Source: Acetoanaerobium noterae (lineage in GTDB: Bacteria; Bacillota; Clostridia; Peptostreptococcales; Filifactoraceae). From it: a DNA stretch of 64,000 nt. Each line of letters starts with the position of its first letter. Within the stretch, counting starts at the first letter, position 1. Below, piece after piece: positions 45,784 to 52,041 of the stretch. The position numbers were made by a program, and so were the translations under genes. The notes beneath the pieces are model-generated. The model searched no databases and was not told the DNA's origin. It was given only the letters and a program-made list of their open reading frames with translations. Where the stretch lies: positions 124,001 through 188,000 of the forward strand of contig NZ_FUYN01000004.1 in NCBI RefSeq assembly GCF_900168025.1, given 5' to 3'.

Positions 45784-46806
45784 CTATTGTAGTTCAATTA
45801 GTTCATAGTCTTTAGAGCCAAAACCAATTTTCACAGCGTGCTCTATAGATTCTCTTCCATCGTCAAATAGCTTATCTTCACTTTGATTTTGAAGCATATC
45901 TATACAGGCAGCGTCTATTGCTACAGGATCCTTTGAAATAAATACTCCAATATCTGATGCAACTTCGTCCATATGCTGACCCATGCAGTCACATTCTTTA
46001 GTTATATTAATCAAATAAGTGATGTATACATTATCCTTGTCTTTTTGAGCTGCATACGCATATTCTGCGAGCTTTTCTTTAAAGTTTACTTCTGACCAAT
46101 CATTTACTATAGCTCCTACTGGACATACTGCTATACAGCCTGCACATCCTACGCATTTTTCAGAGTGAATAAATGCTTTTTCTTTCATTTCTATTGCTTC
46201 TACATCGCATTTTTTTACACAAAGGCCACAGGATATACATTTTTTCTCTATTACCTTTGGGCTTATTCCAGAGTGCTGTGCTAGTTTTCCTCCTCTAGCT
46301 GCAAAACCCATAGCAAGCTGTTTCATAGCTCCGCCAAATCCAGCTGACCCATGACCCTTGAAATGTGCCATAACTAGAAATTGATTGTATTTTGAAAACT
46401 CTGTCCCTATTTTACAAGTTGAGAAGTATTCTTTATCTATCTTTATTTCGTCATAAGCTTCCCCATGGTCCCCATCTGCTATGATTATTGGAAGCTGAGT
46501 GAAACCGTGCTCTTTTGCAAGCTCTATATGACTATCTCTAGTAGTTCTTGAGCCTCTGTAGAGTACATTTGTCTCTATGTAGGCGCTTTCTATTTGATTT
46601 TCTCCCATATATTCTATTACATCCTTGTAACAGGCTGGTTTTATATATGTAGTGTTGCCTTTTTCACCGAAATGCACTTTCATGGGAACTGTTTTTTCCC
46701 AGATATGATTTTCATTTTTTACTAAAACTTCAAGTAACTCTCTAGCCGCTTTGCTTAGTTTTTCTTCAGATTTATCAGTAACTTTTTTAAAATAGACTTT
46801 TGACAT
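45784..46806 (-). CDS. DUF362 protein with two 4Fe-4S clusters
   Basis: The 340-aa protein has a DUF362 domain containing a two-cluster ferredoxin insert: KCISCGLCVKKCDVEAIEM and KCVGCAGCIAVCPVGAI. Segments GHGSAGFGGAMKQLAMGFA and SKDPVAIDAACIDML are typical of the family. ATG 46806 lies 8 bases after GGAGG; a longer frame from 46821 has no ribosome site. Its role is probably electron transfer or metal-cofactor-related, unproven. It is followed by an amidohydrolase gene in the same operon. It is cytoplasmic and likely oxygen-sensitive. Confidence 0.9.
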   Translation of the reverse strand: MSKVYFKKVTDKSEEKLSKAARELLEVLVKNENHIWEKTVPMKVHFGEKGNTTYIKPACYKDVIEYMGENQIESAYIETNVLYRGSRTTRDSHIELAKEHGFTQLPIIIADGDHGEAYDEIKIDKEYFSTCKIGTEFSKYNQFLVMAHFKGHGSAGFGGAMKQLAMGFAARGGKLAQHSGISPKVIEKKCISCGLCVKKCDVEAIEMKEKAFIHSEKCVGCAGCIAVCPVGAIVNDWSEVNFKEKLAEYAYAAQKDKDNVYITYLINITKECDCMGQHMDEVASDIGVFISKDPVAIDAACIDMLQNQSEDKLFDDGRESIEHAVKIGFGSKDYELIELQ

Positions 46807-47025
46807 AAGTAATACCTCCATCTTTATATTATTCTTCTTTGAAATATTTTTAAATGAATGGCTATTTTATAGCTTTCTAATTATATTTTATCATATTTAT
46901 TATTTTTTAGCCTCATTGGATTATATTATAAAAATAAAGTTATTTTATTTTGTTTATTGTATACTTATTTGTGTGTTACAATATTTTTGTATGTTTATTA
47001 ATTTTGATAAGTGCAGGTGATGGCT

Positions 47026-47487
47026 ATGATTTTATCTACTCACTGCTATATAGAGCGTGACGATCAGATATTGATGATGCATAGGATAAAAAAGAAAAAC
47101 GACATTCATATGAATAGATGGGTAGGACTAGGGGGTAAGATGAATCCTGGCGAAACCCCTGAACAGTGCATCATAAGAGAAATATATGAGGAGAGTAATC
47201 TAAAAGCTAATAGTGTAAAGCTTCGTGGTTTTATAACCTTTCCTGACTTTATGGGAGATAACGACTGGTATATGTTTTTGTTTTCTTGTGATGATTTTTC
47301 TGGAGATGTAATTGAGAATGAAGAAGGAAAACTAAAATGGATTCCAAAATCAGATATCAATCAGCTTGATATGCTTGAAGGTGACAAGATTTTTATGGAG
47401 TGGATGAATAAGTACAATTTTTTTACTGCTAGGTTCACTTATAAAGACGATGAGCTTATAGACTACAGTCTTGATACAATTATTTAA
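47026..47487 (+). CDS. Nudix hydrolase, MutT/8-oxo-dGTP diphosphatase-like
   Basis: The 153-aa protein has a full Nudix box: GGKMNPGETPEQCIIREIYE followed by ES. It probably hydrolyses oxidised or modified nucleoside diphosphate compounds with Mg2+. The start is chosen at ATG 47026 because AGGTGAT (47015-47021) lies about 6 bases upstream; GTG 47011 and ATG 47020 are in frame but have no upstream site. It is followed by a B3/4-domain gene after 34 bases. Confidence 0.9.
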   Translation: MILSTHCYIERDDQILMMHRIKKKNDIHMNRWVGLGGKMNPGETPEQCIIREIYEESNLKANSVKLRGFITFPDFMGDNDWYMFLFSCDDFSGDVIENEEGKLKWIPKSDINQLDMLEGDKIFMEWMNKYNFFTARFTYKDDELIDYSLDTII

Positions 47488-47521
47488 TTTTTTCATAATA
47501 TATTATTTTGGAGGTTACACT

Positions 47522-48181
47522 ATGAATGTTAGAATTGATGAACAAGTAAAAGAAATACTACCTAATCTACAGCTAGGTATAATTGAAGCAAATGTTGTGG
47601 TTTCGCCTAGCGATGATGAACTATGGGGCATGATTGACTCTGTTTATAAGCATCTTCAGGAAACTCTTACTTTAGAGGATGTACTTAAAATAGAAAGTAT
47701 TCAAGCTGCTAGAAGATCATATAAAAAATTGGGCAAAGACCCTAGCAGATATAGAGTTTCTTCAGATTCACTTATTCGCCGTATTCCTAAAGGAATGGAT
47801 TTATATAAGGTAAATAATATAGTTGATATAAACAATCTTATTTCGCTAGAGACTGGCCATAGTCTTGGGTGTGTAGATTTAGCTAAAGTTAAAGGCGATG
47901 TAGTATTCACAAAGGGAAATGCGGGAGACTATTATGAGGGTATAGGAAGAGGTCAAATCAACCTTGAAAATATGCCTGTTTTTAAGGATGATGAGGGTTA
48001 CTTTGCTTCTACAACTTCTGATTCTGTTCGAACTCAGGTAACTGAAGAAAGTAAGCATATTATGATGATGGTGATATGTTTTGAAGGTGATTCAAAGCTC
48101 AATGAGTATATAGAAAAAATAAACAGCCTGATGACAAAATATGCCGAGGCGAAAATTCTGGAGTCTAAAATTGTAGGTTAA
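47522..48181 (+). CDS. B3/B4 tRNA-binding domain protein
   Basis: The 219-aa protein matches the stand-alone B3/B4 domain of phenylalanyl-tRNA synthetase beta. It has IQAARRSYKKLGKDPSRYRVSS, LIRRIPKG and NNLISLETGHSLGCVDLAK. Stand-alone proteins of this type may edit or bind aminoacyl-tRNA. GGAGG lies 8 bases before ATG 47522; the longer frame overlapping the Nudix gene is unlikely. The hairpin at 48203 terminates transcription. Confidence 0.85.
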   Translation: MNVRIDEQVKEILPNLQLGIIEANVVVSPSDDELWGMIDSVYKHLQETLTLEDVLKIESIQAARRSYKKLGKDPSRYRVSSDSLIRRIPKGMDLYKVNNIVDINNLISLETGHSLGCVDLAKVKGDVVFTKGNAGDYYEGIGRGQINLENMPVFKDDEGYFASTTSDSVRTQVTEESKHIMMMVICFEGDSKLNEYIEKINSLMTKYAEAKILESKIVG

Positions 48182-48202: not shown

Positions 48203-48241
48203 AAAAAAGTACAAGCCCAGATTTTGAGCTTGTACTTTTTT
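48203..48241. terminator. Bidirectional terminator
   Basis: A 14-bp perfect stem AAAAAAGTACAAGC/GCTTGTACTTTTTT (48203-48216 with 48228-48241) with an 11-base loop provides a T-run on both strands. It separates the B3/B4 gene from the convergent activase gene. Confidence 0.9.
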
Positions 48242-49028
48242 AATATTTTACAACATCAATTCCATAAGACATTGCAAGCTTTTTTAGCTCACTAATATAA
48301 ATAGATGATGGTGCTTTGAGATTTTTAGATGCAGCTTTTATTCCAAGCTGTTCATATTTTTTTTCAGCATAAAAATGATGTGGTAAGAATTCTAATTTAG
48401 GATTATTTATATAGGATTTCATAAATTCAACTGTATTAATTATGTTTTCTTTATCTGAATTTATACTTTCAATCAAAGGTATTCTGATTATTAGTGGTAA
48501 ATCCTTTTCTCCCATTTTCTTTATATTATCTAAAATAAGCTTATTATCTTTACTTGTCAGCTTAATATGCTTTGATGAATCCATATGTTTAATATCCACA
48601 AAAATAGTTGACATTTTATCTAAAACTGCTTCTACTTTTATAAAATCAAAATAGCCACATGTTTCAATTGCCATATCGATTGCTTTATCATAGAAAATTT
48701 CAGAAAGTGATTTTAACATTTCTAATTGAAGAGTAGGCTCTCCTCCAGAAAATGTAACTCCACCTCCAGAATATCTATAGAAGGTTTTGTATTTTATAAC
48801 CTCATCTACAATTTCATTTATGTTGTATTCCTTAATAAACTCGCTATAAACTTGACTATTATTACATAGCTCAATCTGACTTTCTGGATTTGAGCACCAG
48901 ATGCATCGAAGCGGACAGCCTGCAAGAAATATAAGCGTTCTAATTCCTTCACCATCATTTACTGAAAAATGTTGAGGCTTCATAAAATAACCTTTAAGAG
49001 CCTTTTTCGATATATTAAAATTCATCAT
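48240..49028 (-). CDS. Glycyl-radical enzyme activating enzyme (radical SAM)
   Basis: The 262-aa protein has the radical SAM motif CPLRCIWC, then VTFSGGEPTLQ and IETCGYFD. It generates the 5'-deoxyadenosyl radical that installs a glycyl radical on its partner. The segment between CIWC and the GGE motif is short and has only one extra Cys, so the ferredoxin-like double-cluster insert of many non-PFL activases is missing; it resembles PflA in this. ATG 49028 follows AGGA by 6 bases and overlaps the end of the partner gene by 14 bases, showing translational coupling. Confidence 0.92.
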   Translation of the reverse strand: MMNFNISKKALKGYFMKPQHFSVNDGEGIRTLIFLAGCPLRCIWCSNPESQIELCNNSQVYSEFIKEYNINEIVDEVIKYKTFYRYSGGGVTFSGGEPTLQLEMLKSLSEIFYDKAIDMAIETCGYFDFIKVEAVLDKMSTIFVDIKHMDSSKHIKLTSKDNKLILDNIKKMGEKDLPLIIRIPLIESINSDKENIINTVEFMKSYINNPKLEFLPHHFYAEKKYEQLGIKAASKNLKAPSSIYISELKKLAMSYGIDVVKY

Positions 49029-51384
49029 GAGAAGTCCTTGCAATTATGGCATCCTGCATTGATTTCGAAAGATTGACAAACTGAGTGCTATAACCTGCTA
49101 CACGTACTAATAAATCCTTATATTCTTCTGGCGTTTGTTGAGCTTTTTTTAATATTTCACTTGATATAGTATTAAACTGAACATGAAAAGCTCCAAGTGC
49201 AAAGAAGGATTGAATCATTGCTCCTAAATTACTTTGCCCTCTTTTAGTATTTACGAGGTTTTCATTTAGTCTTAAATTTAGCAATGTTCCTCCTGAATGT
49301 ACATCTTGATTTAATTTTGCGGCTGATTTCATAGCTGCCAGAGGTGTAGTTTTATCACTGCCCACAAAAGGTGATACTCCTTCCGATAGTGGTTCTTTTG
49401 ATTTTCTTCCACAAGGGGTAGCTCCTATAACCTTTCCAGTAGGCAAATAATTTGAAATTCCCATAAACGCTGTATTAAAAGGTTTTCCATTTATGTCCTT
49501 GTATGAATGTCCTACTTTATAGTAATGATTTGCTATATCACGGGCTATATTATCAACATAGTCATCATCATTGCCATATTTCGGCACTTCTATTGCCATA
49601 TTTCTTAGCTCTTCAAAGCCCTCCCAATTTGCATTCATAGCTTCAATAATATCTTTCATTTCAATTAGCTTATCTTCGAATACTAATTTTTTTATAACAG
49701 CTAATGAATTTGCAACTACTGCTAATCCAATTCCTGTAAGAACTGGACCTAAATTATATTTAGCTCCTGCATCAACCAAATCTACACCTTTATCTAAGCA
49801 TGATTCTATACATGAACTCAAAAAAGGTCTCGGAACCATTTCTTTGTGAAGCTTTTGTGCTACAAGTGTAGATATAACTGAATGCTCTATTAATTTATCA
49901 AATTCATCATAGAAAGCTTTTTCTACTTCATCAAATGATTTAAAATGAACTGCTGATTTATCTGTGATTCCAAGCTTCTCGTTATATATTCTACTTATAC
50001 CATTATTAAGTGCAAATTCTAGCGCTGCAGCAAAGTTTATATTTACAGCAGAGGTCCACTCGCCTGTTTTTCTAAAATGAGGTACAACACATCCGCAATT
50101 ATTCCAATCTCTAGCATCCTCAGGCTCATATCCAGCGTTTATGAGCATTTGATATCCTGCACTATCATTATGTATAGCTGGGAATCCTGTTCCAATGCTT
50201 ACTAAATCAGTTACTGCCTCAAGAAATTCTGTAGGGCAGTCTTGATGAATTCTAACGCTTAAGCCTGGCTGATGGGTTTTAATATTTTTAGTAGCTTTAA
50301 GACACATATATGAAAGCTCATTTGTTGCATCTTTCCCATCTCTTGTTTTACCACCTACAGTTAGATTTTGAAATTGATTATAGCCCGCAAAGAATTCTGC
50401 TGTGTTGGCAGAAATAGTCCATACCCACTCCGATATTTTAATCCAAAAAGCTTCGATTAGTTCTTGAATATCATCCTTGCTTGATTCTTCACTTTCTATA
50501 TCCGATTTATAATAAGGGTACATGAACTGATCGAATCTACCTATGTTTAATGCCAGTGGATTTTCAGATAATATTCCCCCTAGTTGAGTAAACCAAACGA
50601 ACTGAATTGCTTCATGAAATGTAGTTGGTGGATTTTCTGGAACTGTTTTACATATTTGGGCAATTTTTATAAGCTCATTTTTTCTATTTGAATTTATTTC
50701 TATTGATGCTAGGTTTTCAGCTTCTTTTGAATATCTTTTCGCAAGAGTTATTATCCCTTCTGAAGTGTGGATAACTGATTCATAAAAATCTATTTTCCCG
50801 ATATCCTCTGGAATATAAAGGGATAAAGTTTCTAGCTTAGCTTTAGCATCTTTTATTATTCCGCTAAACCCTTTTTTAAATAATACATCCTGATAATCTG
50901 GAGTGATTTCTCCTACTGCTTGTCTCCATTTCGAATCATTGTCAATTATTCCAGTATCTACGGCTATTTTAGCAGTTTTTTCAGGTAGACGTGATAAGAA
51001 TGCCTCTTCTAAAGACTTTCCTTCCCAGTACGGGAATATAGCCTCTCTAACGTAGCTCTTTTGTTCATCTGTTATTTCATAAGGGTCTTGAACTCTATTG
51101 CTAAAATTATCCATTTCTTTGTCTACCCATGTCCACGAAAATTCAGGTGTAAGAATCCCGCACTTTCTAAATTCTCCTATTGCTCCTACTATAAGCTCAT
51201 TATCAAAAATTTTAACATCTAGATTCTCACAGGTGAATTTAAAAGCTTTTGCTCTTCGTTGGCTTATGCTTTGTCCCTCAGTTTCTTTATGAGACTGAGT
51301 CCACAGCTTGGCTCTTTGGTATGATATAGCTGGTTTTGAATTGATATAATTTAGCCTAGCGCTTTCATTTCTAGCAGTAGTCAT
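49015..51384 (-). CDS. Glycyl radical enzyme of unassigned substrate
   Basis: The 789-aa protein is a PFL-like glycyl radical enzyme. The radical Gly is in VRVAGYSTQFVNLS near the C-terminus. The thiyl-loop reads NNCGCVVPHFRKTGEW: the likely active Cys is followed by V-V-P, so the Glu at +2 found in GCVEP-type dehydratases (CutC, HypD, propanediol dehydratase) is absent. That argues against simple assignment to those. Linked hydroxyproline C-N lyases, decarboxylases or other types are possible. Its own promoter precedes it, after the XRE-cupin gene's terminator, and its activase is coupled. Requires strict anaerobiosis. Confidence 0.92.
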   Translation of the reverse strand: MTTARNESARLNYINSKPAISYQRAKLWTQSHKETEGQSISQRRAKAFKFTCENLDVKIFDNELIVGAIGEFRKCGILTPEFSWTWVDKEMDNFSNRVQDPYEITDEQKSYVREAIFPYWEGKSLEEAFLSRLPEKTAKIAVDTGIIDNDSKWRQAVGEITPDYQDVLFKKGFSGIIKDAKAKLETLSLYIPEDIGKIDFYESVIHTSEGIITLAKRYSKEAENLASIEINSNRKNELIKIAQICKTVPENPPTTFHEAIQFVWFTQLGGILSENPLALNIGRFDQFMYPYYKSDIESEESSKDDIQELIEAFWIKISEWVWTISANTAEFFAGYNQFQNLTVGGKTRDGKDATNELSYMCLKATKNIKTHQPGLSVRIHQDCPTEFLEAVTDLVSIGTGFPAIHNDSAGYQMLINAGYEPEDARDWNNCGCVVPHFRKTGEWTSAVNINFAAALEFALNNGISRIYNEKLGITDKSAVHFKSFDEVEKAFYDEFDKLIEHSVISTLVAQKLHKEMVPRPFLSSCIESCLDKGVDLVDAGAKYNLGPVLTGIGLAVVANSLAVIKKLVFEDKLIEMKDIIEAMNANWEGFEELRNMAIEVPKYGNDDDYVDNIARDIANHYYKVGHSYKDINGKPFNTAFMGISNYLPTGKVIGATPCGRKSKEPLSEGVSPFVGSDKTTPLAAMKSAAKLNQDVHSGGTLLNLRLNENLVNTKRGQSNLGAMIQSFFALGAFHVQFNTISSEILKKAQQTPEEYKDLLVRVAGYSTQFVNLSKSMQDAIIARTSHDEF

Positions 51385-51427: not shown

Positions 51428-51457
51428 ATTATACATTGTGCGTTATAACATATTCAA
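51428..51457 (-). promoter_or_regulatory. Promoter of the glycyl radical enzyme operon
   Basis: On the complement, TTGAAT (51452-51457) and perfect TATAAT (51428-51433) are 18 bases apart. The spacer holds the palindrome GTTATAAC (51442-51449), a possible site for the XRE-cupin regulator encoded just upstream. Confidence 0.6.
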
Positions 51458-51470
51458 GTACAAAAAAATA

Positions 51471-51491
51471 AACGAAGAAATTATCTTCGTT
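51471..51491 (-). terminator. Terminator of the XRE-cupin gene
   Basis: An 8-bp stem AACGAAGA/TCTTCGTT (51471-51478 with 51484-51491) with a 5-base loop is followed on the complement by TTATTTTTTTG. It separates the regulator gene from the glycyl radical enzyme promoter. Confidence 0.8.
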
Positions 51492-51492
51492 C

Positions 51493-52041
51493 TTAGTATT
51501 TTATTATATTTTGAAATATGACCTCTTCTTCATAAGGGTTAGAATATATGTGGACTTTATCACCTCTAAAGGAAATTGCTGAAGGTGCTTTTAGTATATA
51601 TTGATTTTCGTCAACAATAAGCTTTAAAACTCCTTTTGTAACAGTAATATACTCTTCACAAGAACTATTGTGAGGTGAAGCTTGATGATACGCTCCAGGA
51701 AGAAGCTTTATATAAAAATATTCAAATCCCAGAAATGGGTTAAATGGAAAAACATTATATAATATCATTTTACCATCCGATTCAAACATAGCTTCTAAAG
51801 CATTTATATCAATTACTTCTGAGTCTTGTTTTTTACTACTTAGAAATTCAGAAAATGATAATTTTAGCCCAGTAGATATTTTCCATAAAGTTGATATCGT
51901 AGGAACGGATTCTCCTCTTTCAATTTGTCCTAGCATTGCCTTGCTCACACCCGTTAACTTTGAAGCTTCATCAAGAGTTAATCCCCTTTTAAATCTTATC
52001 TCTTTAAGAACTAATCCTATATTTTGTGATGGATCCTTCAT
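51493..52041 (-). CDS. XRE-cupin family regulator
   Basis: The 182-aa protein has a Cro/C1-type HTH (about residues 10-65; LTLDEASKLTGVSKAMLGQIERGES) and a C-terminal cupin domain (SCEEYITVTKGVLKLIVDENQ). This layout is that of PuuR-like regulators, which respond to small metabolites. Unlike many, it lies directly upstream of a glycyl radical enzyme gene and likely controls it. It follows the sirtuin gene by 9 bases on the same strand. The ligand is not known. Confidence 0.88.
   Translation of the reverse strand: MKDPSQNIGLVLKEIRFKRGLTLDEASKLTGVSKAMLGQIERGESVPTISTLWKISTGLKLSFSEFLSSKKQDSEVIDINALEAMFESDGKMILYNVFPFNPFLGFEYFYIKLLPGAYHQASPHNSSCEEYITVTKGVLKLIVDENQYILKAPSAISFRGDKVHIYSNPYEEEVIFQNIIKY

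Follow-up and report, generated by a model that had tools for sequence, protein, structure and literature searches.

The window analyzed here, a 64,000-nucleotide stretch of the Acetoanaerobium noterae genome (contig NZ_FUYN01000004.1, positions 124,001 to 188,000 of the forward strand), encodes at positions 49015-51384 a glycyl radical enzyme (GRE) of 789 amino acids. Judged by its sequence relatives, this protein belongs to a real, fixed GRE subfamily, known in kind and new as a variant, for which no description was found in the literature searched. We call this uncharacterized subfamily VVPH, after its loop. The glutamate two residues after the thiyl cysteine (the +2 Glu) serves as the base in described GRE eliminases; in VVPH it is replaced uniformly, so that different chemistry or a rewired mechanism is to be expected, and this makes the chemistry of the family of interest. 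The best explanation, which we hold tentatively and with the chances rather against it, is a Glu-independent radical lyase that would act on a small zwitterionic amine and would be encoded by a repressor-controlled operon. Window positions refer to the reverse strand unless otherwise stated.

Conservation and placement of the VVPH subfamily

The GRE reading frame is intact (open reading frame list, NCBIfam and Pfam). Its product matches the Pfam PFL-like domain at 717.5 bits and also contains a Gly_radical domain, and with its thiyl cysteine, RVxG motif and neighboring activase it has the features of the PFL-like GRE superfamily. By alignment, the thiyl loop NNCGCVVPHF (residues 428-437; 50074-50103) contains the thiyl residue Cys432, Val434 in place of the glutamate, and Cys430 at position -2. 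The glycyl radical motif RVAGYS (residues 761-766; 49087-49104) includes Gly764, and a pocket segment, SKWRQAVGE (residues 151-159; 50908-50934), contributes S151, K152, W153, R154 and E159. At E <= 0.001 the host genome holds two GREs, the one in the window and a PFL (L002) that scores above the PFL cut-off.

The family set comprised the best 80 of 223 candidates from named genomes, with 62-79% identity. Six peptide patterns gathered these 80 loci, and one of them, DWNNCGCV, may have biased the collection toward the loop; 25 further non-duplicate loci were added by whole-protein searches, which are independent of the patterns, and CGCVVPH is identical in these 25, in agreement with the pattern-collected set. 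In the alignment of 106 rows (the window and 105 loci), Val434, Cys430, Cys432, His436 and Thr444 are present in every row. Ser151, Lys152, Trp153, Arg154, Glu159, Leu277, Phe332, Phe338, Met641, Ile643 and Gly764 are each present in 105, the remaining row being a gap in a split gene (L071 at position 151, L025 at position 764). At least 97.5% conservation was seen at 257 of the 789 positions (82 rows). In L071 (whose contig is apparently that of G641:C203), in L025 and in G715:C11, the family GRE gene is split over two frames or has an internal stop, and is possibly a pseudogene or an assembly error.

The initial annotation had described a loop without the +2 Glu that known dehydratases have in common, and this description was borne out: Val434 occupies the site in all 106 family rows, while Glu is found in 74 of 83 aligned non-family rows, a count that is no census, as the comparison set was hand-chosen with few PFLs. 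Most of the 83 rows came from 149 genomes of the phylum, from which 70 search matches were fetched (66 long non-PFL frames and 4 PFLs), and 10 came from a second search. The remaining rows have Ser (seven, namely six PFL rows and L153), Asp (one) or Tyr (one). The +2 Glu is also missing from two further GREs, L150 (1027-3441; CVYMDI) and L153 (1453-3801; CVSILP), both of genome G109; they lie on long branches and match no equivalog at its cut-off.

In a tree of 83 GREs (quick search, support from the SH-like approximate likelihood ratio test, SH-aLRT, no bootstrap) the 19 family rows form one clade with an SH-aLRT value of 100. At a value of 98 this clade is joined with a group consisting of CutC (9 rows) and a lineage with the loop WNPCGCVE (4 rows), which is that of PDB entries 8id1 and 8iof, titled as N-methyl-cis-4-hydroxy-L-proline and -D-proline dehydratase. 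Row labels were checked by NCBIfam cut-off for 4 of the 9 CutC rows, 3 HypD-like rows and 1 HpsG row (L139), all of which scored above it; the glycerol-dehydratase-like label rests on loop likeness. The window protein lies below every NCBIfam equivalog cut-off: 726.2 bits against 1050 for CutC (TIGR04394), 559 against 1100 for HypD, 637.2 and 488.4 against 1000 each for the (2S)-3-sulfopropanediol dehydratases HpsG and HpfG (NF048011 and NF048009), and 139.1 against 994.2 for PFL (TIGR01255), whose adjacent Cys-Cys pair is also absent. It is likewise separate from the N-methyl-4-hydroxyproline dehydratases of the 8id1/8iof lineage, with CGCVV rather than CGCVE, and belongs to the single VVPH clade, of which it has the marks S151, K152, E159, C430, V434 and H436.

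The suggestion that the enzyme is distinct from the assigned subfamilies is thus upheld by the single clade and the profile scores. No assigned subfamily with a VVP loop was found in the profile, PDB, tree and fold comparisons, and no isofunctional match by NCBIfam, PDB sequence search or fold search. VVPH is unnamed in the titles and abstract openings of the literature searched, and published GRE trees or networks may show the clade unlabeled. At E <= 1e-220 a search of the window's order found members in 51 of 345 genomes, and a search of its phylum found them in 5 of 398 (the window genome being in both sets); none at 60% identity or above was found in 10 genus or family relatives searched, so the distribution is patchy.

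Thirteen active-site residues of CutC are named in PMC12451663. When these were mapped by alignment, the CutC rows carried the named residue at all 13 positions, while the VVPH family retained Phe389, Phe395, Cys489, Thr502 and Ile700 and was altered at eight: Tyr208Ser, His209Lys, Asp216Glu, Thr334Leu, Met487Cys, Glu491Val, Tyr506Asn and Leu698Met. All eight changes are fixed in 80 of 80 family rows, including those at Glu491, Asp216 and Tyr208, the residues taken here as marks of CutC; among the 106 rows, 100 have Asn and six have Ser at the Tyr506 position (448). E159 occupies the place of CutC Asp216 and of a His in HypD rows. Of the 83 rows outside the family, none but the four N-methyl-hydroxyproline-dehydratase-like ones has Lys152 or Glu159; Trp427 occurs in 8 of 83 and Cys430 also in 8 of 83, among them dehydratase-type and PFL rows. 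A Cys430-Cys432 redox pair was considered as a reductase hallmark and dropped, since Cys430 is also present in dehydratase-type rows.

The activase and its variable insert

A radical SAM activase with the motif CPLRCIWC is encoded at 48240-49043 (counted from the first TTG), overlapping the end of the GRE gene. It scores 226 bits against TIGR02494, the profile for GRE activases of the PFLE/PFLC type (cut-off 174.35), and differs from them in lacking the ferredoxin-type insert with two clusters, an absence already remarked on in the initial annotation. The accompanying idea, that the missing insert is a clue to the type of reaction, did not survive comparison within the family. The activase adjoins the GRE in 104 of 105 loci, and counting the cysteines that follow the radical SAM motif showed the insert to be present in 60 and absent in 44 of these activases, of which a few are fragments. 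Beside other GREs, a cruder test sorted 62 activase-like genes into 39 long, 2 short and 21 undetermined, and with so many long forms the insert is likely to be ancestral.

With CutC and the N-methyl-hydroxyproline dehydratases as the root, the tree requires nine losses if the insert was never regained (102 rows), or ten with the window added (103 rows), although L020/L176 may have their loss in common with the window (support 68-93). Strongly supported branches force five insert changes on the GRE tree, where nine is the fewest overall, and four on the activase's own tree, where the overall number is 11. Some short activases keep a possible remnant of the insert (NPEVCPTGARK in L082, and also L014), which would fit recent deletions. 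With the insert both present and absent within one GRE subfamily and lost repeatedly, it is uninformative on the GRE reaction. According to PMC11528403, most GRE activases carry additional [4Fe-4S] clusters of unknown function. A subfamily served by activases with and without these clusters constitutes a natural experiment, in which their role is testable with matched pairs.

The regulator, its putative operator and neighboring genes

The XRE-cupin regulator named in the initial annotation is indeed present, as a transcription regulator of 182 amino acids with HTH_3 and Cupin_2 domains (51493-52041). Between it and the GRE gene lie an intrinsic terminator-like hairpin (51470-51492; mean of shuffles 0.0) and a sigma-70-like promoter, TTGAAT-18-TATAAT (51428-51457), which matches 10 of 12 consensus bases and has in its spacer a putative operator, ATATGTTATAACGCAC (51438-51453; family consensus GTGCGTTATAACGCAC). 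Promoter-like matches numbered two in the stretch with 1.2 expected, which is not above chance.

An XRE-cupin homologue was found within 3.5 kb in 56 of the 105 family loci; an earlier count gave 47 of 80, for which the 1 of 83 seen with other GREs is an unfair control, those stretches being mostly about 1.5 kb. Thirteen loci have a GntR-FCD regulator, 11 of them without XRE-cupin, and 38 have neither. Measured from the GRE start codon, the palindrome GTGCGTTATAACGCAC begins 41-69 nt upstream in most cases. The octamer GTTATAAC occurs in 21 of 56 XRE loci versus 1 of 49 other loci, and palindrome scores of at least 12/16 in 26 of 56 versus 2 of 49 (two of the 49 being without upstream sequence), with 15 of 2120 among single-base shuffles. 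A search of the window with the last 12 bases of the putative operator, allowing one mismatch, gave a single site versus 0.15 expected.

Of 14 whole genomes searched, 13 contained the operator pattern with no more than one mismatch, at 18 sites in all; judged by position, 14 of these lie at the GRE promoter, and a backward reading of the pattern gave 7 sites. The four non-promoter sites were considered as signs of a second regulon target and set aside, as they lie within this background; they are found inside a coding region (L223), behind a gene (L224), 5' of a YbaK-like gene (L209) and in L221. The L209 site (1501-1516; Clostridium sp. OS1-26) is a full 16-bp operator match, of a sort that can arise singly by chance according to the backward control, and the protein 3' of it is one that we take to be YbaK/ProX-like. 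A second set of genomes gave a match in 15 of 27 (23 sites versus 11 backward, partly mapped); 12 had no match, which means that the consensus does not fit all regulators. In the window's genome the pattern has a single site, at the GRE promoter. The regulator very probably belongs to the GRE operon, and from this single site we infer that it probably serves that operon alone; a regulator that seems to have one target would offer, through its ligand, a handle on the GRE substrate.

The scan of neighboring genes covered 116 of 188 same-strand neighbors (the nearest upstream and two nearest downstream, at least 150 amino acids; L189 and 14 duplicates were left out) and, as controls, 108 genes lying farther away in these loci (116 drawn, with 8 omitted, most as end-cut and one by length). 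Among the 25 commonest families of each set, those commoner beside the GRE were GntR (9), FCD (9), metallophosphatase (7), MatE (4), M20 (4), PP-loop ATPase (3), rhodanese (3), Fer4_17 (5 versus 2 in controls) and aldo-keto reductase (4 versus 2). Some of these enrichments are due to small groups of related loci. A run of genes (clusters c31, c30 and c11) is common to L028, L037 and L039, its L037 copies being annotated as aldo-keto reductase, PP-loop/rhodanese and MatE, and homologous metallophosphatase genes lie beside L047/L050 and L004/L009. M20 peptidases are found near the GRE in L014, L057, L060, L078 and L082, and a D-serine ammonia-lyase above cut-off in L014; L053 has a diaminopropionate ammonia-lyase and L066 an aminotransferase, and the neighbors in L057 include two MenC-like enzymes, the M20 peptidase and a CoA-transferase. 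These lineage-specific genes of amino-acid type are no more than suggestive.

Several further genes were observed near family loci. A stand-alone B3/4-domain protein (PF03483), with a weak match to the PheRS beta chain, is encoded on the forward strand of the window at 47471-48181, convergent with the activase gene, and one homologue was seen among the reading frames of the 105 loci (L072, 13791-14468). A DUF362 protein with a 4Fe-4S dicluster domain (45784-46821) lies a few genes past the activase, outside the conserved unit. The fetched stretches of L020 and L003 contain a second GRE of about 900 amino acids from another clade (loop AIGGCLE), which in L020 directly follows the family activase gene.

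Possible reaction and relation to known enzymes

In the proposed lyase, the XRE-cupin regulator would repress the operon from the operator inside the promoter spacer until the substrate or a relative binds the cupin and releases repression. The activase would then place the radical on Gly764, and Cys432 would become a thiyl radical and abstract hydrogen from a small zwitterionic amine, either an amino acid or an N-methylated amino acid. The pocket residues may point to a zwitterionic substrate, with Lys152/Arg154 perhaps holding the carboxylate and Glu159 the ammonium, although these roles are guesses. The substrate radical might lose the amine, the choice of a C-N bond being likewise a guess, or another leaving group. 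In CutC the +2 Glu deprotonates the substrate hydroxyl, as stated in PMC12451663, and a conserved Glu is required for the same step in IseG, according to PMC6453916; the residue that does so in IseG is the one without a counterpart in VVPH. The lyase would dispense with this Glu, and any base would come from Glu159 or from the substrate itself. The clade partners, CutC and the N-methyl-hydroxyproline dehydratases, act on N-methylated amines, which counts in favor of this explanation, as do the sharing of Lys152 and Glu159 with the latter lineage, the eight altered CutC pocket residues, the operator, the amino-acid-type neighbors in single lineages and the GntR-FCD regulators of 13 loci. That the family represents a GRE reaction class not yet described, a substrate-induced, Glu-independent radical cleavage of a common or N-methyl amino acid by a stand-alone GRE-activase pair in anaerobes, seems to us a prospect falling a little short of even.

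Several points weigh against the lyase. No conserved catabolic partner gene was found in the neighbor scan, nothing beyond the activase and the regulators being widely conserved, and adjacent genes are mostly lineage-specific or unrelated (MatE, metallophosphatase, MTHFR). The sharing of K152 and E159 could reflect ancestry rather than substrate, and Cys430, present in dehydratase-type and PFL rows, is no pointer to new chemistry. The loci that yielded the operator consensus are also those in which it was counted, which is partly circular, and the consensus matches no more than a portion of them. Residues 323-325, 333-336 and 643-650, which touch the pocket, are modeled by AlphaFold with low confidence. 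The role in amino-acid breakdown put forward in the initial annotation is weakly supported, with two pocket residues shared with the N-methyl-hydroxyproline dehydratases and some amino-acid neighbors speaking for it and the lack of a conserved pathway partner against it.

A doubtful but possible alternative is that the enzyme is still a dehydratase of the ordinary kind whose base has moved. Glu159, His436 or water would then stand in for the lost Glu, and the substrate that loses water would be a hydroxylated (N-methyl-)amino acid, for instance an isomer of 4-hydroxyproline. The nearest lineages with assigned reactions are CutC and the N-methyl-hydroxyproline dehydratases, and Thr444 and Glu159 are kept. 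However, the +2 Glu is retained in the CutC, HypD-like, HpsG, glycerol-dehydratase-like and N-methyl-hydroxyproline-dehydratase-like rows, including the lineage that has Glu159, and no proline-pathway gene is among the 25 commonest neighbor families. Chemistry at a C-C bond, whether a decarboxylation like that of arylacetate decarboxylases or an addition to fumarate like that of X-succinate synthases, is improbable: the segment 276-279 is hydrophobic where other groups have more polar residues, and one locus has a CoA-transferase gene, but TutD/BssA and MasD rank only 49 and 50 among the best 50 fold matches and are low in the PDB sequence search. It is very improbable that the enzyme is a PFL-like acyl transferase for another 2-oxoacid, as the PFL superfamily annotation and an activase without the insert (PFL-AE also lacks it) might suggest, given that the Cys-Cys pair and Arg159 of PFL rows are missing, a branch of length 2.94 separates the family from PFL, and the insert varies within the family. 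Equally hard to credit is a non-catalytic homologue, for which the loss of the canonical Glu could be cited, against the retained Cys432 and Gly764, the 257 highly conserved positions and the near-constant activase.

Compared with known enzymes, the AlphaFold model of the window GRE (predicted local distance difference test, pLDDT, 83.8; predicted template modeling score, pTM, 0.89) has its best fold match in CutC, whose top chains, with choline or an inhibitor bound, give template modeling (TM) scores of 0.93-0.94 at 36-38% identity; the thiyl Cys, the Gly radical, Phe332/Phe338, Thr444 and Ile643 are common to CutC and the window family. The GRE fold is also shared with HypD (TM 0.94 to 6vxc), from which the family differs at positions 159 and 434 (His and Glu in HypD-like rows) and at further residues of the pocket. 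The N-methyl-cis-4-hydroxyproline dehydratases 8id1 and 8iof (TM 0.93-0.95) share the W-x-x-C-G-C-V loop, Lys152, Glu159 and Cys430, and differ in retaining the +2 Glu (CGCVET) and in forming their own clade.

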